Below are positions 7,925 through 38,853 of a DNA stretch of 64,000 bases, piece after piece. The notes beneath the pieces are model-generated. The model did no database searches and had not been told where the DNA came from. It worked only from the letters and a program-made list of their open reading frames with translations. The DNA comes from Streptomyces sp. NBC_00690 (lineage in GTDB: Bacteria; Actinomycetota; Actinomycetes; Streptomycetales; Streptomycetaceae). The stretch lies in the NCBI RefSeq assembly GCF_036226685.1, contig NZ_CP109009.1, forward strand, positions 4,712,001-4,776,000. Direction: 5' to 3'. The position numbers and the translations under genes were made by a program. Position 1 is the stretch's first letter, and the number at the start of each line of letters is the position of its first letter.

Positions 7925-8289
7925 CTGGTATCTCCTTTGTGCTGTGCGCTCTGATCGGTAGGGCGGCGCTGGGCGAGTACCGGCGCGGGGTGCCCTGCTC
8001 CACGCGAGAAGGCGTGTGCCGCTTGTCCCGCGCCGGGGACGTGTTGCCGCTCGAACCTCAGGATCCGTGGATCGTGGCACGGTTGAGCGGCGGCCAGAGG
8101 AGTATGTCCGGCCGTCTTCACGAGATCCGGCGGCCTGATTCCATCCTGAGTTCGAAGGAGAGAGGCAACCGAATGGGCGCGTGCCGGCCAGTCCGACAAC
8201 GGAGCGACTGCGCTCATTCGCCGGTTGATCTCTTCGACGGGCACCTCGGCGATCGTGATCGTCTTGAGGTTGAGGGCACCGGTGGTCAT
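7921..8289 (-). CDS. Short unidentified ORF coupled to neighbours
   Basis: The frame of 122 residues starts at an ATG that overlaps the stop of the upstream phosphatase-family gene (ATGA) and ends overlapping the methyltransferase start (GTGA). The first 35 or so codons have Streptomyces-like GC-rich third positions and encode TTGALNLKTITIAEVPVEEI; the remainder does not look coding. It could be a short real protein, a decayed gene whose N-terminus survives, or just leader RNA. I recognise no domain. Confidence 0.35.
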   Translation of the reverse strand: MTTGALNLKTITIAEVPVEEINRRMSAVAPLSDWPARAHSVASLLRTQDGIRPPDLVKTAGHTPLAAAQPCHDPRILRFERQHVPGAGQAAHAFSRGAGHPAPVLAQRRPTDQSAQHKGDTR

Positions 8290-9218
8290 GAGGCCATCAC
8301 GGCCTTCCCGGGAGTCTCCGTCCTGACCTCTGTGTCGAGGATGACGGGAAGGTGATCGGAGAGGGCGCGCACAGCGGGGCTGTCGTACGTCCGATATACG
8401 GTCGCGGGCAGACCGCGGATGAAGATGTGGTCCAGTCGAAGGGGTACGGGCTCGTTCGCGTAGGCGTAGCCGACGGTCGCCGCTCGATCCTCCCCGGTGA
8501 GGGATTGGGGATCGGCCCAGCCAGAATTGATCAGGACCTGGATCGCCCGTCGGTCCATGGCACCGAATCGGCCAGCGTCGTCGACCTGCCGGTAGCGCGA
8601 GTGGAGATTTCGCGGCACCAGATCCCAGTCCTCCGGGTCGGTGTCGTACGCCCCGGAGCAGTTGAGATCGCCCAGCAGCATCGCCCGGGACGGCATGCCG
8701 GGAAACGCTCCGGCGTAGTCGGTCAGCCAGCGGGCCTCACGTAGCCGGGTCTCGCCGTCGGTGTGGGTGAAATGGGTGGCGAAGGCGAGAAGGTCTCGAC
8801 TGCCATCCTCGGCGCCGACGGGACGGAGGCGTGCGCGGATCAAGGCGTGGTGGAAGACCTCCACGCCCAGAATTCTTCGCCCGACCAGGTGCAGGGTGGA
8901 TGGGCGGTACAGGAGGGCGGTGAAGTTGCGGCCGTCCCCGATGAACGAGCGGGCCATGCGGACGGGTGCCATGCCCAATGTGCGAGCCATCCAGAGCAGG
9001 CGGCGCTCCTCCTGCTCGTCCCACCCGGTGCACTCCTGGAGGGCGAGAACGTCGGGCTTGAGACCAGCCAGGATCTCCGCCTGCGTGTGCAGGCGCTCCT
9101 CGGAGGTTCCGTCCACGCCGCCGCAGTAGAGGTTCCAGGTCACGGCGCGGAGCTTCGTACCGGCCCTCTTGCTCGGAGGCGCATCGATCGCCGGGGCGGG
9201 CAGTTGGTGCAGGTTCAT
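8286..9218 (-). CDS. Endonuclease/exonuclease/phosphatase (EEP) family protein
   Basis: The 310-residue protein starts at ATG 9218. EEP-fold motifs are clear: LRAVTWNLYCGG at the start, LALQECTGWDE with the metal-binding Glu, FATHFTH, MLLGDLNCSG (the catalytic D-x-N) and LSDHLPVIL with the C-terminal Asp-His pair. The fold covers metal-dependent phosphodiesterases from DNases to sphingomyelinases and inositol phosphatases. No signal peptide is evident, so it is probably cytoplasmic. It is the first gene of a chain of three overlapping frames leading to the lanthipeptide operon and may be co-transcribed with it, although such genes are not known lanthipeptide enzymes. Confidence 0.85.
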   Translation of the reverse strand: MNLHQLPAPAIDAPPSKRAGTKLRAVTWNLYCGGVDGTSEERLHTQAEILAGLKPDVLALQECTGWDEQEERRLLWMARTLGMAPVRMARSFIGDGRNFTALLYRPSTLHLVGRRILGVEVFHHALIRARLRPVGAEDGSRDLLAFATHFTHTDGETRLREARWLTDYAGAFPGMPSRAMLLGDLNCSGAYDTDPEDWDLVPRNLHSRYRQVDDAGRFGAMDRRAIQVLINSGWADPQSLTGEDRAATVGYAYANEPVPLRLDHIFIRGLPATVYRTYDSPAVRALSDHLPVILDTEVRTETPGKAVMAS

Positions 9219-30867: not shown

Positions 30868-32061
30868 ATGAGCACGAAGGACTTCGTCGAGAAGGACTAC
30901 TACAAGGTTCTCGGCGTCCCCAAGGACGCCACCGAAGCCGAGATCAAGAAGGCGTACCGCAAGCTCGCCCGCGAGTTCCACCCGGACGCCAACAAGGGCG
31001 ATGTCAAGGCGGAGGAGCGCTTCAAGGAGATCTCCGAGGCCAATGACATCCTCGGCGACCCCAAGCGGCGCAAGGAGTACGACGAGGCACGCGCCCTCTT
31101 CGGCAACGGTGGCTTCCGACCCGGGCCCGGCGCTGCCGGTGGCTCGTTCAACTTCGACCTGGGTGACCTCTTCGGGGGCGCCCAGGGCGGACAACAGCCC
31201 GGGGCCGGTGGAGCCGGTGGCTTCGGCGGCGGGCTGGGAGACGTCTTCGGCGGTCTGTTCAACCGCGGGGCGGGCGGCCCGGGCACCCGGGTCCAGCCGC
31301 GCCGCGGCCAGGACATCGAGTCCGAGGTCACGCTGAGCTTCACCGAGGCGGTCGACGGGGCCACGGTTCCGCTGCGGATGTCCAGCTCCGCCGCCTGTGC
31401 GGCGTGCGCGGGCACCGGCGACAAGAACGGCTCACCCAGGGTGTGCCCGACCTGTGTCGGCACCGGGCAGGTCTCACGCGGCGGCAGCGGGTCCTTCTCG
31501 CTGACCGACCCGTGCGTGGACTGCAAGGGTCGCGGGCTGATCGCCCAGGACCCCTGCGAGGTCTGCAAGGGCAGCGGGCGGGCCCGCTCCTCGCGCACCA
31601 TGCAGGTCAGGATTCCCCCGGGCGTCTCGGACGGGCAGCGCATCCGGCTGCGCGGCAAGGGCGCACCCGGAGAGCGGGGCGGTCCCGCGGGAGACCTCTA
31701 CGTCGTGGTGCACGTCGGCGACCACCCGGTCTTCGGCCGCAAGGGCGACAACCTCACGGTCACCGTGCCCGTCACCTACCCGGAGGCGGTGCTCGGCGGT
31801 GAGGTGAAGGTGCCCACGCTGGGCGGCCCTCCGGTCACCTTGAAACTGCCCGCGGGGACACCTAACGGGCGGACCATGCGAGCACGCGGCAAGGGAGCGG
31901 TCCGCAAGGACGGCACCCGCGGGGACCTGCTGGTCACCGTCGAGGTCGCGGTTCCCGAGGAGCTGAGCGACAAGGCGAAGGAAGCGCTGACGGCCTACCG
32001 CGAAGCCACCGTGGACGAGGACCCGCGGGCCGAGCTGTTCCAGGCCGCGAAGGGAGCATGA
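30868..32061 (+). CDS. dnaJ: Chaperone DnaJ
   Basis: The 397-residue protein has a J-domain with the HPD motif (LAREFHPDANKGD), a Gly/Phe-rich linker (about residues 85-140), four zinc-finger repeats (CAACAGTGD, CPTCVGTGQ, CVDCKGRGL, CEVCKGSGR) and the two C-terminal substrate-binding domains. GGAGGG precedes ATG 30868. It delivers unfolded substrates to DnaK and stimulates its ATPase. It is a full type I Hsp40. Confidence 0.97.
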   Translation: MSTKDFVEKDYYKVLGVPKDATEAEIKKAYRKLAREFHPDANKGDVKAEERFKEISEANDILGDPKRRKEYDEARALFGNGGFRPGPGAAGGSFNFDLGDLFGGAQGGQQPGAGGAGGFGGGLGDVFGGLFNRGAGGPGTRVQPRRGQDIESEVTLSFTEAVDGATVPLRMSSSAACAACAGTGDKNGSPRVCPTCVGTGQVSRGGSGSFSLTDPCVDCKGRGLIAQDPCEVCKGSGRARSSRTMQVRIPPGVSDGQRIRLRGKGAPGERGGPAGDLYVVVHVGDHPVFGRKGDNLTVTVPVTYPEAVLGGEVKVPTLGGPPVTLKLPAGTPNGRTMRARGKGAVRKDGTRGDLLVTVEVAVPEELSDKAKEALTAYREATVDEDPRAELFQAAKGA

Positions 32062-32062
32062 G

Positions 32063-32515
32063 ATGGACGGCCGGGCCGGACGCAGTCGTAACCCGTATCA
32101 ACTGACCGACGAGTCACCCGTATACGTGATCTCCGTTGCAGCCCAGCTCTCCGGTCTACATCCGCAGACCCTGCGGCAGTACGACAGGCTGGGTCTGGTC
32201 TCGCCCGACCGCACGGCCGGGCGGGGCCGTCGTTACTCCGCCCGTGACATCCAACTCCTGCGCACCGTCCAGCAGCTGTCGCAGGACGAGGGCATCAACT
32301 TGGCTGGGATCAAGCGCATCATCGAGCTGGAGAACCAGGTCGCGGCGCTCCAGTCCCGCGTGGCGGAGCTGTCCGCCGCGGTCGAGGGCGCTGCGGCGGC
32401 GATGCAGCAGCGCGAGGCCCAGGTCCATGCTTCGTACCGGCGCGATCTGGTGCCGTATCAGGACGTCCAGCAGGCGAGTGCCCTGGTGGTGTGGCGACCC
32501 AAGCGGGTCGACTAG
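32063..32515 (+). CDS. hspR: HspR, MerR-family heat-shock repressor
   Basis: The 150-residue protein starts 1 base after the dnaJ stop. It has the MerR winged helix: VYVISVAAQLSGLHPQTLRQ, YDRLGLVSPDR and GRRYSARDIQLLRTVQQLS, followed by a dimerisation helix (ELENQVAALQSRVAEL). HspR represses the dnaK operon, clpB and lon by binding HAIR sites with DnaK as co-repressor. Both HAIR-controlled loci seen here (28186-28258 and 36160-36180) fit this circuit. Confidence 0.96.
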   Translation: MDGRAGRSRNPYQLTDESPVYVISVAAQLSGLHPQTLRQYDRLGLVSPDRTAGRGRRYSARDIQLLRTVQQLSQDEGINLAGIKRIIELENQVAALQSRVAELSAAVEGAAAAMQQREAQVHASYRRDLVPYQDVQQASALVVWRPKRVD

Positions 32516-33493
32516 CCCTTTGGGTACGGGTACGGCGTCACGGCGCTGTCCCGTTGCCCACGGCGGGGCTCAGGTGCGGCCCACATTGCCGTTGCCGTCC
32601 ATCAGTCGTGGCTGCTCAGTCGTGGCCGCTTTCGCCCGGTTCCTTGAGGGGTTCGCCCCCGGGGCCGGGCTTTTGCGTTGGCGAATAGATGGCGTGGGGG
32701 GGGCGGGCTTCGAACGTTGGGCGCGTGGGCCATAGAGGTCGGCGGCCGGTGTGGCGTTTGTTGTACGGGCCGTCCGTGGGTACGTGAGGCCAGCGGGGCT
32801 TCGTACGGAGCGCACGAGCGGGTGCGCCACCTCCACGGCATCTCGACCGCCCAACCGCTCGTTGACGGTCGTTCCGCACGGGTCACGCACGGGGCCGTGT
32901 GCCTGGTTGAGAGCGGCCTTGGGGGCGGCTTCCGTCACGGAGGGTGGCAGCGAGTGGTTCTCACGCCGGCCGGCCCCGCGACGGGCGTTGTTCGCGGAGA
33001 GTAGGAGGGCCCGGGGCGAGAAGGCCCCGTGGAGGGCTTCCCTGCGGGTTCCACCGGGCTTGCCCGCATTGGGGCGCCCCCGGGTGGTAGCCCTGCCCGA
33101 TAGGCCCTCAGAAGGGCGCCTAAGCCCCTGGATGCAACCTCCGTGCCCATAGGAGCCATTGGCTGCCCCAAGGGGCCGGTCTGCGGCCGTATGCCCATCG
33201 GCACGGCGCCCGGGCGGTGCAACGGACGACCCCGCCGTTGGCTCCTTAGGCTCCTTCGGCTCGGTCGGTGCCGGCTTCGCCCGGTCCTTCCCCCGTTTGG
33301 CCCCCGTCCGCTGATGTTTGCCGCGCTTCTTCGGCGGCCGGCCGAGCGCCCCTCGCGATGTCGCGAGAAGCGCTCGGCCGGTGCCCGTCGACTCATCCGT
33401 CGCGCCCGTCATTCTTGAGCCGGGGAGCGATGGTTTCAGGTCGAACTATGAAGACCTTGTCCTCCTCTTACGCGCCCATATATCGGACATTCA
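32516..33493. other. Long intergenic stretch without a supported gene
   Basis: Nearly 1 kb between hspR and the LuxR gene. Open frames exist on both strands, including a 280-codon minus-strand one, but they are low-complexity (Lys/Pro/Arg-rich), have poor ribosome sites and no steady third-position GC bias. Apart from the compound hairpin at 33338-33381 I see no feature. Confidence 0.55.
33338..33381 (-). terminator. Compound stem-loop, probable terminator of LuxR gene
   Basis: A perfect 12-bp outer stem (33338-33349 with 33370-33381) encloses a 6-bp inner stem CTCGCG-ATGT-CGCGAG. It lies 113 bases beyond the LuxR stop. No clear T-tract follows, so termination is likely but not certain. Confidence 0.6.
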
Positions 33494-34477
33494 TCAGGAA
33501 TCGTGATCCAGAATCCCCGATTGGGCGATCAAGAAGCCGAGTTGCGTACGGCTACCGCTCCCGAGCGACGACCCGAGTTTGGCGATGTGGGCCCGGCAGG
33601 TCCGCACGTTCATCCCCAGGCGGCGGGCGATGGCCTCATCCACGTGGCCCTCCACCAGGAGCTTGGCGATGGAGCGCTGGACGCCGGTGATGCCGTCCAG
33701 GTCGGGACCGTAGGACACGGGCTCCTCCCACGGCAGTCCGTGCAGCCAGAACTGCTCGAACACCCCGACCAGGTACTCCACGATGCCCTTGTGTCGCAGC
33801 TCAAGTGCCGAGAGCCGATCGCTGCTCGCCGGGATGAACGCCACCTTGCGGTCCACGATGATCAGCCGGTCGATTATCTCCTCCAGCGTGCGCACCTCCA
33901 CGCCCGACGGCCCGACCTTCTCCATGTAGGCGAGCGTGGCGGGGTGGTGGCGCGCGGTGTGCTGGTAGAGCGTGCGCATCCGTACTCCCCGCTCGATCAG
34001 GGGCTCCACCCTGCGCAACGCCTTCTCCAGGATGTGCGGCTGTCGGCCGCTCCCGGGCTGCACCGTCAGCAGCTCCTCCGTGCAGTCCGCAGTGACCTGG
34101 TCGAGGGTCGTGTTGATGCGGTTGAGGCCCTCAAGGACGGTTATCCCTTGCGGCACGGTGGAATTCTGAGCGGTGAAGGCCATGAATGGCTCAAGTGCGT
34201 CGGTCAGAGCGACCGTTCGTCGTCGCCGCTCTTGGATCTCACGCTCAATGGGGTGTATCAGCTGTGTCAGCGCGGTCGTTGGTGGGACCGGGCGCAGCCA
34301 TTGAGCGTCGTCGGGATCAGGGTGCAGCAGGGCGAGGTCAAAGAGACAAGGTGCGGGTTCCGCTTCTGACCGGGCGATTCTCCCGGTGCGCAGAGCGGTG
34401 ATGTACAGACGTTTCCCCACCTCGCACAGCTCACCGTCTGTGTGAGGGTGTCCGGATTCGCCCCCATTCGACGTCAT
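33494..34477 (-). CDS. LuxR-family (helix-turn-helix) regulator
   Basis: ATG 34477 is preceded by GAGGGGG and gives 327 residues. The C-terminal 60 residues are a LuxR-type helix-turn-helix: ITGVQRSIAKLLVEGHVDEA, IARRLGMNVRTCRAHIAKLG and GSRTQLGFLIAQSG. The N-terminal 250 residues are helical with a TrmB-like/PLD-like part (MRTLYQHTARHHPATLAYME, VAFIPASSDRLSALELRHKG) seen in Streptomyces orphan regulators. There is no receiver domain. It is divergent from a small secreted repeat peptide, suggesting it controls or senses it; that link is inference. Confidence 0.88.
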   Translation of the reverse strand: MTSNGGESGHPHTDGELCEVGKRLYITALRTGRIARSEAEPAPCLFDLALLHPDPDDAQWLRPVPPTTALTQLIHPIEREIQERRRRTVALTDALEPFMAFTAQNSTVPQGITVLEGLNRINTTLDQVTADCTEELLTVQPGSGRQPHILEKALRRVEPLIERGVRMRTLYQHTARHHPATLAYMEKVGPSGVEVRTLEEIIDRLIIVDRKVAFIPASSDRLSALELRHKGIVEYLVGVFEQFWLHGLPWEEPVSYGPDLDGITGVQRSIAKLLVEGHVDEAIARRLGMNVRTCRAHIAKLGSSLGSGSRTQLGFLIAQSGILDHDS

Positions 34478-34603
34478 ATGCACCCCCTCAGGCTCCTGCA
34501 ATTCAGGAACATGATGCCTGCCGTCGCTGGTGCAAGCGTTCGGAGTGAGACATCGTCTTATGCGCGGGGGAGGAGGAATGATCAAAAGAGGTGGAGATCA
34601 CCC

Positions 34604-34849
34604 ATGTCTAGGACGCTACGTGCTCTTTGTGCTCTTGCCATAACGGCGGCCACGCTAGGCGCGGTGGCCTCCGGTGAATACTCCTGGGACAAGCCGGGTA
34701 CCGCGGTGACCCACGCGGAGCCCTCCTGGGGTGCTGCTCCACCCAGTGGTGCGGTCACTCTTGGTGAGCCCTCTTGGGGCGGCAAACCACCGGCTGTCGC
34801 TGGTGTGTCCTCTCGGAGTGTCACTTCGAACAACGGCACAGAAGCATGA
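34604..34849 (+). CDS. Secreted small peptide with three EPSW-like repeats
   Basis: ATG 34604 follows GGTGGAG. The 81-residue product has a Sec signal (RTLRALCALAITAATLGAVA). Three repeats of about 16 residues follow: EYSWDKPGTAVTH, EPSWGAAPPSGAVTL and EPSWGGKPPAVAGV, each with E-x-SW then Pro/Gly. No cysteine remains after the signal. Codon use is much less GC3-rich than in neighbours, suggesting recent acquisition or low expression. The stop overlaps the next gene (ATGA). It is divergent from a LuxR regulator, so a signalling or matrix role is possible. I recognise no named family. Confidence 0.75.
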   Translation: MSRTLRALCALAITAATLGAVASGEYSWDKPGTAVTHAEPSWGAAPPSGAVTLGEPSWGGKPPAVAGVSSRSVTSNNGTEA

Positions 34850-35166
34850 CCGTTCCACCGGACGACCGGGTCTTCCGGCGTGAGATGGCTACGGCATACC
34901 GCTCGGGGTGGCATTTCATCGACCTCGTCACGGCAATCCCCCACCGTGGCGACTCGTTGATGGTCACTTTGTTCGGAGAGCCGATCGTCGTGGCGCGCGA
35001 GGAGGACGAGGACGTCCGCGCATACCGGTGCCTGCGCAGGCCCCGCGGAGCGCCGCAGCCCGTCCGGTGCGCCATCCGGTACGGAATGATCTTTGTCAAC
35101 CTCGACCAGCGCGACCAGCAGATGGTCGAGCCCGACACCACCACCGCCACCCCCCGCAGTGCCTGA
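34846..35166 (+). CDS. Rieske-like small protein lacking cluster ligands
   Basis: The 106-residue frame overlaps the peptide gene by ATGA. Its core, TAYRSGWHFIDLVTAIPHRG then DSLMVTLFGEPIVVAREED, matches the start of the Rieske fold of ring-hydroxylating oxygenases. Where the 2Fe-2S ligands (CxH and CxxH) should be, it has RAYRCLRRPRGAPQPVRCAI and then YGMIFVNLDQR, with two cysteines but neither histidine. It therefore probably cannot hold a normal Rieske cluster. It may be a binding or regulatory protein. The fold match is by eye and moderate. Confidence 0.7.
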   Translation: MTVPPDDRVFRREMATAYRSGWHFIDLVTAIPHRGDSLMVTLFGEPIVVAREEDEDVRAYRCLRRPRGAPQPVRCAIRYGMIFVNLDQRDQQMVEPDTTTATPRSA

Positions 35167-35208
35167 GCGATTCCCCCGTCGAAAAAGATCGCTCGGGTAC
35201 TTCCCCCA

Positions 35209-35292
35209 CACAGTGGTGCCATCGCGGACCTGAAACGCGATGGCACCACTGTGCTTTTCCCGTGGGCCCGTCCGCCAAAGGACGGGCCCACG
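35209..35292 (+). terminator. Two tandem terminator hairpins after the peptide/Rieske-like operon
   Basis: Hairpin 1 (35209-35226 with 35236-35253) is a perfect 18-bp stem with a 9-base loop, followed by CTTTTCC. Hairpin 2 (35261-35273 with 35280-35292) is a perfect 13-bp stem with a 6-base loop. The remainder of 35167-35656 contains only the tandem repeat at 35567-35626. Confidence 0.88.
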
Positions 35293-35566
35293 GTGCGTTC
35301 CGTACCGCCTTCGTGGGCCCGTTGGCTGTGCACAGGCCGTGCAACGGCCATGTAGAGGTCGCCCGGGTGCCCGGGGTGGATGGTTCCGAACGGCGGAAGC
35401 CGTCGATGCCTGCTGGCCGGGTGCGAGCATGCGCCCCCCGATGTGAGCCGGGTGTGATCCCGGTGGTCCTACCTTCTGGCACGCACCGGGCGGGCCGGGC
35501 GTTCAATCGAGTCGTCAGCGGGCTTCATGGACGGTCGTCGGCCCTATGGGCGGCGGCTCGTTCAAG

Positions 35567-35626
35567 AACAGCGGGAACAGGAACAGCGGGAACAGGAACA
35601 GCGGGAACAGGAACAGCGGGAACAGG
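35567..35626 (+). repeat. Four perfect tandem copies of a 15-bp unit
   Basis: AACAGCGGGAACAGG is repeated four times without a mismatch, just beyond the 3' end of the F420-type oxidoreductase gene. One plus-strand frame would encode NSGNR repeats, but no ribosome site or gene context supports translation. Confidence 0.9.
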
Positions 35627-35656
35627 AGCGGCGGGGGCCAAGAGTGGCGGCGGACG

Positions 35657-36085
35657 TCAGGCGCGCCCGAGCGCCTTGTCCACGGCGATCTCGATCAGCA
35701 CCCGGTCCGGGTTGGGCCCGGGTGTGCGCCCGTAGCGCTCCGCGTACCGCCGTACCGCGTCCGCGACCAGCTCCGGTTCCGTACGGACCCGGGCCAGGCC
35801 CTCCAGGGTCGCCCAGCGGGCGTGGTCGAGCTGGCACACGGCCACCCGGGCCCCGTCCGCACCTCCGCCGGCTTCCGCTTCTTCCGCTGATCGGAGGACA
35901 TGGGCGATCTTTCTGCTCTGGCGATTGGTGATCACTCGTGCCAGGCGCTGATCGTGGTCGTAGGTCACGCCCACCGGTACGACATGAGGACTACCGTCCG
36001 GTCGCAAGGTCGTCAGGGTGCACAGATGGCGCTCCTGCCAGAACGCCAGATACTCGGGGCTGAGGTGGGATAGGTCATGGGCCAT
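35657..36085 (-). CDS. PPOX-class F420-dependent oxidoreductase
   Basis: The 142-residue protein has the split beta-barrel of FMN/F420-binding proteins: LAFWQERHLCTLTTLRPDGS then PHVVPVGVTYD at the start, NRQSRKIAHVLR in the middle and WATLEGLARVRTEPELVADA toward the end. Family members reduce varied substrates, such as biliverdin or quinones, with F420H2, a cofactor made by actinobacteria. ATG 36085 overlaps no other gene and is divergent from clpB. Substrate unknown. Confidence 0.88.
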   Translation of the reverse strand: MAHDLSHLSPEYLAFWQERHLCTLTTLRPDGSPHVVPVGVTYDHDQRLARVITNRQSRKIAHVLRSAEEAEAGGGADGARVAVCQLDHARWATLEGLARVRTEPELVADAVRRYAERYGRTPGPNPDRVLIEIAVDKALGRA

Positions 36086-36159
36086 GCGTACAGCGTAGTT
36101 GCGCTCCGTGATCGACCATGGCTCGGGATGGCGGGATAGCAGATGGCTGGCGCAACGAG

Positions 36160-36180
36160 GTTGAGTGGAATACGCTCAAC
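36160..36180 (+). promoter_or_regulatory. HAIR operator upstream of clpB
   Basis: GTTGAGT-N7-GCTCAAC forms a perfect 6-bp palindrome (GTTGAG/CTCAAC) of HAIR form 75 bases before the clpB start. It overlaps a TTGAGT sequence that can serve as -35. HspR control of clpB is established in Streptomyces. Confidence 0.88.
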
Positions 36181-36255
36181 TTTATGCAGGTTGTATGAGT
36201 CAGTGCTAGTGGCTGTTAGGGATGAAGCGATACCTGCACGGAGGAGAGAGCGCGC

Positions 36256-38853
36256 GTGGACGCCGAGCTGACCAACAAGAGCCGGGAAGCGATCAACAAC
36301 GCCACCAGTCGGGCCGTGACCGATGGGCACCCCGATCTGACGCCGGCGCATCTGCTGCTGGCCCTGCTCGCCGGCCAGGAGAACGAGAACATCATCGATC
36401 TGCTGGTCGCGGTCGAGGCGGACCAGGCCGCCGTGCGCGCCGGGGCCGAACGGCTGCTGGCCGGACAGCCGAGCGTCACCGGTTCCACCGTCGCGCCCCC
36501 GCAGCCCAATCGTGAGTTCCTCGCCGTCATCGCGGATGCGGCCAAGCAGGCCAAGGAACTCGGCGATGACTACCTCTCCACCGAGCACCTGCTGATCGGC
36601 CTCGCCGTCAAGGGCGGACAGGCAGGCGAGGTGCTGGCCGCACAGGGCGCGAGCGCGCAGCGGCTGCTCAATGCATTCGAAACCGTACGGGGAGGCAGGC
36701 GCGTGACCACCGCGGATCCGGAGGGCCAGTACAAGGCGCTGGAGAAGTTCGGTACGGACTTCACGGCGGCTGCCCGGGAGGGCAAGCTCGACCCGGTCAT
36801 CGGCCGTGACCAGGAGATCCGCCGGGTTGTCCAGGTGCTGTCCCGACGCACCAAGAACAATCCGGTCCTCATCGGCGAACCCGGTGTCGGCAAGACCGCC
36901 GTCGTGGAGGGACTCGCCCAGCGCATCATCAAGGGTGATGTGCCCGAGTCGCTGAAGAACAAGCGGCTGGTCTCGCTCGACCTCGGGGCGATGGTCGCAG
37001 GTGCAAAGTACCGCGGTGAATTCGAGGAACGGCTGAAGACCGTCCTGTCCGAGATCAAGGGCAGCGACGGCCAGATCATCACCTTCATCGACGAACTCCA
37101 CACGGTCGTCGGCGCGGGCGCCGGCGGTGACTCGGCCATGGACGCCGGCAACATGCTCAAGCCGATGCTGGCCCGCGGTGAACTGCGGATGGTGGGTGCG
37201 ACGACGCTCGACGAGTACCGGGAGCGGATCGAGAAGGACCCGGCGCTGGAGCGCCGCTTCCAGCAGGTGCTGGTCGCGGAGCCGACCGTCGAGGACACCA
37301 TCGCGATCCTGCGCGGGCTCAAGGGCCGCTACGAGGCCCACCACAAGGTCCAGATCGCGGACTCCGCGCTGGTGGCCGCCGCGACCCTCTCCGACCGGTA
37401 CATCACCTCGCGGTTCCTGCCCGACAAGGCCATCGACCTCGTCGACGAGGCGGCCTCCCGGCTGCGGATGGAGATCGACTCCTCGCCCGTCGAGATCGAC
37501 GAGCTCCAGCGGTCCGTGGACCGGCTGCTGATGGAGGAGATGGCCCTCAAGAACGAGTCGGACCCGGCGTCCAAGCAGCGGCTGGAGAAGCTGCGCCGCG
37601 ACCTCGCCGACAAGCAGGAGGAACTGCGTGGGCTGACCGCCCGCTGGGAGAAGGAGAAGCAGGGCCTCAACCGTGTCGGCGAGTTGAAGGAGAAGCTCGA
37701 CGAACTGCGCGGACAGGCCGAGCGGGCCCAGCGCGACGGCGACTTCGACTCCGCCTCCAAGCTGCTGTACGGGGAGATCCCGACCCTGGAGCGGGAGCTC
37801 GCCGAGGCGTCCGAGGCGGAGCGCGAGGCGGCCAAGGACACCATGGTCAAGGAGGAGGTCGGCCCGGACGACATCGCCGACGTCGTCGGCTCCTGGACCG
37901 GCATTCCGGCCGGGCGGTTGCTGGAGGGGGAGACTCAGAAGCTGCTGAGGATGGAGTCCGAACTCGGCCGACGGCTGATCGGCCAGTCCGAGGCGGTCCG
38001 TGCGGTCTCCGATGCGGTACGGCGCACCCGTGCCGGCATCGCCGACCCCGACCGGCCGACGGGATCGTTCCTCTTCCTAGGCCCCACCGGTGTCGGCAAG
38101 ACCGAGTTGGCGAAGGCCCTCGCTGACTTCCTCTTCGACGACGAGCGGGCCATGGTCCGCATCGACATGTCCGAGTACAGCGAGAAGCACAGCGTGGCCC
38201 GTTTGGTCGGTGCCCCGCCCGGTTACGTCGGCTATGAGGAGGGCGGCCAGCTCACCGAGGCGGTGCGCCGTCGCCCGTACAGCGTGGTGCTGCTCGACGA
38301 GGTGGAGAAGGCGCACCCCGAGGTCTTCGACATCCTGCTCCAGGTGCTCGACGACGGACGCCTCACCGACGGCCAGGGCCGCACGGTCGACTTCCGCAAC
38401 GCGATCCTCATCCTGACCTCCAACCTGGGCAGCCAGTATCTGGTGGAGCCCTCGACCAGCGAGGACGAGAAGAAGCGCCAGGTCCTGGAGGTCGTACGCG
38501 CTTCGTTCAAGCCCGAGTTCCTCAACCGGCTGGACGATCTCGTCGTCTTCTCGGCGCTAAACCGCGACGAGCTCGAACTGATCGCGAAGCTCCAGATCGA
38601 ACGGCTCGCCAAGCGTCTCGCGGAGCGCCGACTCACCCTGGAGGTCACCGACGCCGCGCTCGCATGGCTGGCCGACGAGGGCAATGACCCGGCATACGGG
38701 GCACGCCCGCTGCGCCGGCTGGTGCAGACGGCCATCGGGGACCGACTGGCCAAGGAGATCCTCTCGGGGGAGGTCACGGATGGGGACACCGTGCGGGTGG
38801 ACCGTGTCGACGACGGCCTGATCGTGGGACCGGTCCCGGTCAAGAGCCTCTAG
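36256..38853 (+). CDS. clpB: ATP-dependent chaperone ClpB
   Basis: GTG 36256 follows GGAGGAGAG; 865 residues, normal length. The N-domain is followed by AAA-1 ([20 protein letters not shown]), the coiled-coil middle domain with long Lys/Glu helices (about residues 395-520) and AAA-2 ([20 protein letters not shown]), ending in a D2 small domain. The coiled-coil middle domain separates it from ClpA/ClpC. ClpB threads aggregated proteins and returns them to DnaK-DnaJ-GrpE. HAIR control ties it to the dnaK operon 8 kb away. Confidence 0.97.

Follow-up and report, generated by a model that had tools for sequence, protein, structure and literature searches.

For Streptomyces, the main antibiotic-producing genus, most of what is known of signaling concerns small molecules such as gamma-butyrolactones. 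In the Rap-Phr pairs a short peptide, often of 5 residues, is taken from the C-terminal end of its precursor. The accessible part of PMC10075063 describes the signals of Actinomycetota as typically small molecules, presents the RRNPP systems of the Bacillota (Rap-Phr, PlcR-PapR, NprR-NprX) as a mostly Sec-exported propeptide encoded beside the gene of a cytoplasmic receptor, and defines candidate RRNPP receptors by their peptide-binding tetratricopeptide repeats (TPRs). Here we describe a locus of similar form in a 64,000-nucleotide stretch ("the window") of the 9.17 Mb genome of Streptomyces sp. NBC_00690 (NZ_CP109009.1, positions 4,712,001 to 4,776,000 of the forward strand), where a LuxR-type regulator gene lies divergent from an open reading frame (ORF) of 81 residues with a hydrophobic signal sequence and the repeats EYSWD, EPSWG, and EPSWG, which is followed by a small Rieske-like gene; hspR (32063-32515) and clpB (36256-38853) bracket the whole. 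With a probability of about 0.77, we read this locus as a Phr-like, pherotype-divided peptide pheromone system for quorum sensing or kin recognition, with a TrmB-LuxR fusion receptor and a clusterless Rieske-like accessory. A preliminary description of the window had taken the secreted repeat peptide and its dedicated regulator to have the form of a peptide-signal system, a proposal that gains strong support from the covariation of the two, from a check in paralogues, and from their joint variation against constant flanks.

The likeness to RRNPP lies in the exported propeptide beside a receptor gene, while the receptor here is a TrmB-LuxR fusion and not a TPR protein, precursors carry up to 12 copies of the motif, and the system belongs to Streptomyces and its family. 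We consider that the system works like a Phr-type system yet falls outside RRNPP, because the receptor is unrelated. The ligands known for TrmB proteins are sugars. The archaeal TrmB/TrmBL2 regulators share the architecture of a winged helix-turn-helix (HTH) followed by a phospholipase-D-like ligand domain (the regulator family profile matched TrmBL2 in the PDB over positions 16-263, E 8.8e-17); unlike them, the receptor has an extra LuxR HTH and its ligand would be a peptide. Acyl-homoserine-lactone receptors of the LuxR-LuxI type have the C-terminal LuxR/GerE HTH in common with it but differ otherwise, as no autoinducer-binding domain was found among the Pfam matches of the window's proteins or of 80 receptors, and no LuxI-type gene is evident in the unit. 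The pherotype systems agr and ComQXPA likewise have a signal and a linked receptor sensor region that change jointly within a backbone otherwise conserved; these employ membrane histidine kinases and modified peptides, and no histidine kinase or peptide-modifying enzyme was seen by eye among the ORFs at 31500-37500 or the six genes of 80 named loci (the best 80 of 495 confirmed loci, all Streptomyces), no dedicated kinase search being part of this. The yeast alpha-factor precursor, too, is one secreted protein with several uniform pheromone copies, in a eukaryote with a G protein-coupled receptor and Kex2 processing. We found no description of the present system in the open-licence literature, most subscription papers lying outside that search, and as far as our searches tell it would be the first such system of the Actinomycetota with a non-RRNPP receptor.

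Since similarity search with the precursor gave 4 proteins only, loci were collected by synteny. Among 192 loci matched through the Rieske-like gene, with some genomes present twice, the receptor was found in 190 and an upstream signal-sequence ORF with [D/E]xxW in 187, secretion being judged by sequence composition. Deduplicating a larger set left 182 complete nonredundant loci, with [D/E]-x-x-W in 179, NxxW in 2, and no recognizable precursor in 1 (L187). The precursors carry 1-12 copies of the motif, with a core typical of the species; 34 different majority cores occur among the loci, yet a single core is used throughout in 141 of 153 multi-copy precursors, where 566 of 578 copies equal the majority core. 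Copies of the same precursor agreed at 0.96-1.00 in the core residues, at 0.77 in the next residue, and at 0.16-0.54 in the flanks, and synonymous codons differed at 24-47% of identical core residues. As the core is uniform despite these codon differences, selection on the peptide, and not only recent duplication, keeps the copies alike. Among one-copy precursors, 19 of 27 end exactly one residue after the Trp (for example ...DSKWD and ...DTIWS; shuffled mean 0.13, maximum 3), indicating that the functional unit is approximately [D/E]xxWx. Of the majority cores in 181 loci, only those of L122 and L179 lack the acid at position 1, having Asn instead (NTVWP, NTSWP). A signal sequence with repeats would also suit a Trp-repeat protein of the cell surface that neighbors the regulator by ordinary linkage. 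We give this scarcely any credence, because it leaves unexplained the one-copy forms ending in the motif, the matching of residues with a cytoplasmic DNA-binding protein, and the separate paralogous pairs, both described below; membership in a known structural family had been named in the preliminary description as grounds against the signal reading, and the precursor matched none in the searches made.

The motif residues were found to match residues of the receptor's sensor. Across 181 loci, receptor residue 136 sorts motif position 2 with 0 exceptions, in classes read off the same data that they describe: Leu136 goes with Pro (56/56), Met136 with Ser (44/44), and Val136 with Ile, Leu, Thr, or Val (77/77), and the rarer Ile136 and Ala136 go with Leu or Ile (3 loci) and Leu (1 locus). 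Co-change was followed on a regulator-dominated tree of the 181 loci, on a second tree made without the sensor domain, and on a tree of ClpB DNA from 77 named loci with weak nodes collapsed. On the 181-locus tree, residue 136 and position 2 changed together in 18/21 cases (expected 2.2, z 12), ranking first of 273 columns; on the sensor-free tree, each switched class 20 times and all 20 switches were shared; and on the ClpB tree 16/16 switches were shared. Residue 153 similarly ranked first of 273 for position 3 on the 181-locus tree (12/19, expected 2.5, z 6.8), and Gly153 was never paired with Gly at that position. Residue 157 is Asp in 44/44 loci with Ser and 22/22 with Thr at position 2, and Val or Met in 54/56 with Pro; its co-change was 5/15 (expected 1.4) on the 181-locus tree and 11/22 (expected 3.0) on the sensor-free tree. 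Finally, Arg, Lys, Gln, or Gly at residue 146 occur mostly with Glu at position 1, and Ser, Pro, Thr, or Leu mostly with Asp (z 3.7 from 6 motif changes on the 181-locus tree; z 4.3 from 8 on the sensor-free tree). In the structural model, residue 136 lies on the strand 135-140, and residues 153 and 157 lie four residues apart on the helix 147-162. Such associations might arise without contact, if alleles recombine together and the residue pairing is a by-product of a few allele lineages; the alleles do seem to travel together, and several further LuxR columns show a weaker association with the motif. This we regard as very unlikely, given that on a tree dominated by the regulator itself the z of residue 136 greatly exceeds that of each of the other 272 columns (next best 4.6), that the pairing of Asp157 with Ser/Thr fits the chemistry of a contact, and that the Asp157 rule recurs in paralogous receptors 24-48% identical to the window's where aligned.

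Pairwise comparison of the named loci, banded by clpB DNA identity, pointed to exchange of the peptide together with the sensor. In the 95-98% band (30 same-core and 10 different-core pairs), the identity of the LuxR sensor was 0.973 between pairs with the same core vs 0.700 between pairs with different cores, and that of the N-terminal part of the receptor 0.945 vs 0.675, whereas the LuxR HTH fell less (0.972 vs 0.881). The flanks gave 0.985/0.978 for the Rieske-like protein, 0.994/0.974 for hspR, 0.946/0.949 for PPOX, and 0.974/0.966 for dnaJ (same/different core). For the sensor, the same comparison gave 0.951/0.689 in the 93-95% band and 0.944/0.747 in the 91-93% band, the Rieske-like protein standing at 0.947/0.919 in the latter. 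As at pherotype loci, signal and reader have changed jointly while their surroundings stayed constant. We infer that close relatives exchange the peptide along with the receptor sensor as one allele, which would make the strains mutually deaf pherotypes. The matching of peptide and receptor would serve just as well in a self-sensor, in which nothing is communicated between cells and the peptides tell the cell privately that its Sec export or its extracellular proteolysis works, or else the precursor meets and binds the regulator inside the cell ahead of export; the chaperone setting, with clpB in 80/80 named loci and hspR on the opposite side in the 65 that show it, suits this idea. Still, we think it unlikely, as it is not evident why a self-sensor would need 34 cores, and the co-variation of peptide and sensor in close relatives with unchanged flanks is the pattern of a recognition polymorphism.

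The pairing of peptide and receptor extends to paralogues. At E 1e-40, the receptor family was found in 15 of 17 genera of a family sample and 16 of 114 genera of a class sample, in each of which part of every genome's first-look candidates was scored. Among 100 usable paralogues, mostly the best-scoring and not a random sample (L289, L299, and L311 were dropped because the receptor was cut off or too short), 26 had a divergent signal-sequence ORF with D-x-x-W within 320 nt, sister genera included, and all of these fell among the 75 paralogues from the window's family. Asp157 was present in 17 of the 18 with Ser/Thr cores (the exception has Glu) and in 0 of the 8 with other cores (Fisher 5.8e-6, a test that ignores relatedness), and 10 of the 26 peptides end at the Trp or one residue after it. 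For comparison, a divergent signal-sequence ORF with [DE]xxW accompanied 20 of 537 unrelated long ORFs from the window and the 80 loci, with ORFs of up to 170 aa and starts up to 260 nt away, limits that were 130 aa and 320 nt in the survey; two of the 26 paralogue peptide ORFs start beyond 260 nt. With ORFs of at most 130 aa, the control count was 8/537, one being the present system and most of the rest appearing, on inspection by eye, to form two recurring families.

Several observations weigh against the pheromone reading. The 25 paralogues from the class's other families included 0 with a peptide, and 74 of the 100 lacked a nearby D-x-x-W gene; as 45 of these 74 also have Asp157, which is thus common in peptide-less paralogues, many receptors would be orphans or misjudged. 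The peptide-less paralogues may be orphan receptors, or their peptides may have been missed. The 26 are not independent of each other (L302/L303 and L253/L258 are near-twins), the small ORFs at L207 and L321 are doubtful, and the candidate operator described below was not found at the 26, where the best match was 3 of 14 positions off. The 10 different-core pairs of the 95-98% band share loci. As for the peptide itself, 12 of the 153 multi-copy precursors are mixed, the window's included (EYSW beside EPSW), the final W is followed by exactly one residue in no more than 14 of 154, and the fifth residue is less uniform (0.77), so that the predicted ends of the mature peptide are tentative. Residue 153 weakened on the sensor-free tree to third rank, after 152 and 143 (13/26, expected 5.8, z 3.7), and column 94 of the Rieske-like protein came fifth for position 2 (z 3.0). 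Part of the shared changes on the trees may reflect transfer of whole modules and not repeated point changes, a single pocket formed by residues 136, 153, and 157 is suggested by predicted secondary structure and the fold family, and the export, cutting, import, and binding of the peptide are predicted steps.

The regulator consists of a TrmB-type winged helix, a long helix, a phospholipase-D-like alpha/beta sensor (~112-246), and a LuxR/GerE HTH (~265-320). Beyond the TrmBL2 match, the C-terminus of the family profile matched NarL/GerE-type HTHs in the PDB, and an AlphaFold2 model from an 80-sequence alignment (mean predicted local distance difference test score, pLDDT, 88; predicted template modeling score 0.65) showed the helices of an N-terminal domain, then a long helix (66-105), the alpha/beta sensor, and at the C-terminus a further domain of helices. 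In Pfam at 0.001, GerE was matched by 45 and TrmB by 4 of 80 members, and no family at all by the window's own protein; no TPR was among the 17 families matched by the 80 receptor sequences (E 0.001), and PHROGs gave nothing for the regulator or the Rieske-like protein. We propose that the Sec signal sequence would export the precursor, whose observed copies would be cut outside the cell into peptides of 4-5 residues, [D/E]-x-x-W with approximately one residue more. The peptide would be re-imported, presumably via an oligopeptide permease, and would bind the sensor of the divergently encoded regulator. As the covariation suggests, residues 136 and 157 would read position 2, residue 153 and its neighbors position 3, and residues 144/146 position 1, and near-invariant sensor residues may read the constant acid and Trp. 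Binding would then change the hold of the regulator on a conserved palindromic site, in the shared promoter and elsewhere.

The Rieske-like protein would probably serve a step that is the same whatever the signal, for example the output of the regulator, most likely together with the receptor; this last step is the least certain of the scheme, and is suggested by the loss of the cluster ligands and by the absence of variation with the signal. A Rieske [2Fe-2S] cluster is held by the motif C-x-H ... C-x-x-H. In the window's protein the sites read C-L-R ... C-A-I-R, so that both His positions are Arg, and Cys62 and Cys75 are replaced in some homologues, in agreement with the earlier label "ligandless". 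The similarity to Rieske proteins is weak (Pfam E 0.02, below the family cut-off), residues 4-69 resemble the N-terminal part of alpha subunits of ring-hydroxylating oxygenases (PDB, best E 6e-6), and the C-terminal tail ATPRSA is well conserved in close homologues. A role as iron-sulfur enzyme was rejected, as there are no cluster ligands. Covariation of the peptide core is much stronger with the regulator than with the Rieske-like protein, whose best columns on the sensor-free tree ranked 5, 67, and 21 for motif positions 2, 3, and 1, and whose sole column in the 181-locus association lists, rie16, stands low, for position 1. We likewise rejected it as the receptor, because the leading associations with the motif lie outside its columns and because it diverges without regard to the core. 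The protein is an accessory that we saw in this genus only, and little suggests that it contributes to specificity. In essence the system has two parts, the peptide and the receptor; of the three-part signaling set that had been proposed, these two parts stand and the third is an accessory. Multi-core precursors with co-translated small proteins also occur in loci for ribosomally synthesized and post-translationally modified peptides, and the repeats might be modified core peptides, with the Rieske-like protein as tailoring partner and the LuxR protein as pathway regulator. That such a pathway is encoded here seems highly improbable, since the Rieske-like protein lacks cluster ligands and does not lead the covariation, the peptide-LuxR pair is present in other genera where the Rieske-like gene was not found, and no other enzyme, tailoring enzymes included, is evident in the unit. 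In four genomes (L135-L138), the Rieske-like protein has diverged strongly (36-43% identity to that of the window), the receptor is 60-61% identical, and the precursor has one motif copy, DPAWD or DPTWG, at its C-terminus; the Rieske-like forms of L136 and L138 (45-46% identical) lack the first ligand loop.

The clpB-hspR locus with the Rieske-like gene is a genus-specific core and not a recent insertion. The Rieske-like gene was matched at E 0.001 in 167 of 199 genus genomes, or 162 after removal of 5 weak matches (G048, G055, G073, G086, G164) that upon re-search lay in long frames or were gone; the order LuxR(-), Rieske-like(+), PPOX(-), clpB(+) was kept in 80/80 named loci; and at E 1e-10 the gene was found in 1 of the 17 genera of the family sample and 1 of the 114 of the class sample, again with part of the first-look candidates of each genome scored. 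The placement between hspR and clpB in a core region, as given in the preliminary description, was therefore upheld, but the view of the set as a small insertion was not. The three genes are linked and co-inherited, and not scattered: among the 28 genomes of the same genus in the class sample, the Rieske-like gene and a close receptor orthologue (E at most 4e-132) were present together in 23, both were absent from 5, and 0 had one without the other. In 25 genus genomes with no or a weak Rieske-like match, 10 had a receptor-family match (1e-40), all at most 41% identical, a comparison to which 12 further genomes without a Rieske-like match do not belong. The Rieske-like protein of S. albipurpureus is 100% identical to that of the window. 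A second Rieske-like copy, 66% identical and far from the main locus, was seen at L143 (G023 C1:93194-93517), and no receptor or motif peptide was found within the stretch fetched around it. Upstream of the receptor, dnaJ and hspR were present in 65 of the 80 named loci and not found in the fetched stretch of the other 15, of which two (L027, L028) have a stretch that starts close to the receptor. In the other 13 (L043, L051, L067, and L070 among them), no hspR or dnaJ was found within ~6.6 kb upstream, so that the hspR-receptor interval seems variable in length between species.

A phenotype may be attached to the receptor in S. coelicolor. In the accessible part of PMC6585502, an insertion in SCO3664 (named there as a "regulator") is listed among S. 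coelicolor mutants with actinorhodin raised >50-fold, 12 of the 16 regulator mutants of that study having been complemented. In this species, clpB is SCO3661 and hspR is SCO3668, according to the parts available of PMC2631018 and PMC3902916, with six gene numbers in between. The nearest relative that we found (Rieske-like protein 110/111 vs S. violaceoruber) has the order clpB, Rieske-like, peptide, LuxR, LuxR, LuxR, binding-protein-like gene, hspR, with no PPOX match. By position, SCO3664 is probably this receptor: it would be if S. coelicolor is arranged alike with the peptide numbered, or if PPOX is present and the peptide unnumbered, and otherwise it could be a neighboring LuxR paralogue. 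We consider it reasonably likely that the Streptomycetaceae possess a family of [D/E]-x-x-W pheromones read inside the cell by TrmB-LuxR receptors, with specificity at residues 136, 153, 157, and 146, a pherotype-polymorphic core swapped as a peptide-plus-sensor allele, peptide-less paralogues as orphan listeners, and a receptor that in S. coelicolor (probably SCO3664) restrains antibiotic production. An extracellular peptide signal imported by an oligopeptide transporter is described for S. coelicolor, in the form of the BldK-imported 655 Da factor (PMC9640686, accessible part). A link to that factor was considered and dropped, because the one core of relevance, DSKWD of the nearest relative, comes to 649.3 Da by hand calculation and so differs in mass.

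In roughly four of every five genomes of the genus (162/199), sequence thus suffices to recognize a peptide signal and its receptor. The signal of almost every examined locus reduces to a testable 4-5-mer, and the specificity residues of the receptor are predicted, so that which peptides Streptomyces exchange becomes testable with cheap synthetic peptides. As insertion in the probable receptor SCO3664 raised actinorhodin, the system would offer a possible handle on silent antibiotic clusters, and it may be a case of kin recognition in filamentous bacteria.

The features of the locus are collected in Table 1.

Table 1. Coordinates of the features of the clpB-hspR locus in the window.
Feature	Position	Strand	Basis and remarks
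Receptor/regulator gene, LuxR-type	33494..34477	-	ORF list
Receptor residue 157, Val here; Asp with Ser/Thr, Val/Met with Pro at position 2	34007..34009	-	Residue table, co-change, paralogues
Receptor residue 153, Ala here; tracks motif position 3	34019..34021	-	Co-change
Receptor residue 146, Gln here; tracks Glu vs Asp, motif position 1	34040..34042	-	Residue table; co-change
Receptor residue 136, Leu here; candidate specificity residue, motif position 2	34070..34072	-	Classes in 181 loci; co-change
Divergent promoter region, receptor/precursor	34478..34603	.	ORF boundaries; 42-146 nt, median 131 (181 loci)
Candidate operator, TCCTG-N5-CAGGA inverted repeat running into block CAGGAACATGATGC	34494..34517	.	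Alignment of 181 intergenic regions
Second conserved block CATCGTCTT	34551..34559	.	Alignment; exact in 109/181
Putative pheromone precursor gene, 81 aa	34604..34849	+	ORF list
Predicted Sec signal sequence, residues 1-24, predicted boundary	34604..34675	+	Basic N-terminus and hydrophobic run
Motif copy 1, EYSWD (position 2 off majority core)	34676..34690	+	Sequence
Motif copy 2, EPSWG	34718..34732	+	Sequence
Motif copy 3, EPSWG	34766..34780	+	Sequence
Clusterless Rieske-like accessory gene, 106 aa	34846..35166	+	ORF list; AlphaFold2 mean pLDDT 74
Two tandem terminator-like hairpins	35158-35201, 35209-35253	+	Fold analysis
PPOX-class F420-dependent oxidoreductase-like gene	35657-36085	-	Between Rieske-like gene and clpB

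The promoter region shared by receptor and precursor contains a conserved inverted repeat that is a candidate operator. Upon alignment of the 181 divergent regions, the block GGAACATGATGC, which belongs to the repeat, was exact in 164, the form TCCTG-N6-CAGGA was exact in 96, and a relaxed form (N5-6, CAAGA allowed) was present in 140. Other details of the unit given in the preliminary description were also seen. The precursor is less GC-rich than its neighbors, with a GC content at third codon positions of 0.573 vs 0.80-0.90 in luxR, the Rieske-like gene, hspR, ppox, dnaJ, and clpB. Its stop overlaps the start of the Rieske-like gene as ATGA, a 4-base overlap that recurs in 133 of 182 loci, and the tandem terminator-like hairpins after the Rieske-like gene are joined by a third at 35263-35290; the stretch 35150-35290 has a fold z of -11.6, with 0 of 200 shuffles equally stable.

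Further receptors of this type lie elsewhere in the same genome and, in some strains, at the locus itself. The closest paralogue in the window's own genome (L002 1438-2484; G000 C1:8160321-8161229) is 42% identical and has Val136, Ala153, and Asp157, residues from which a ligand of the Thr type would be expected, in contrast to EPSW in the strain's own precursor; no D-x-x-W gene was found nearby. In some Streptomyces, 1-4 further TrmB-LuxR paralogues are located near the receptor at clpB-hspR (L349 4845-7843, G013, G056, G106, G250, G430, G447), and six clpB-hspR paralogues that were examined (L291-L296) had no recognizable peptide of their own. In L349, a lipoprotein-like ORF at 8000-9118, between the LuxR cluster and hspR, resembles by eye the binding protein of a transporter and is a candidate for a part in uptake. 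In the window, direct repeats of the type GGGAACAGGAACAGC form a short run, noticed by eye, at 35563-35627, between the hairpins and the PPOX gene.

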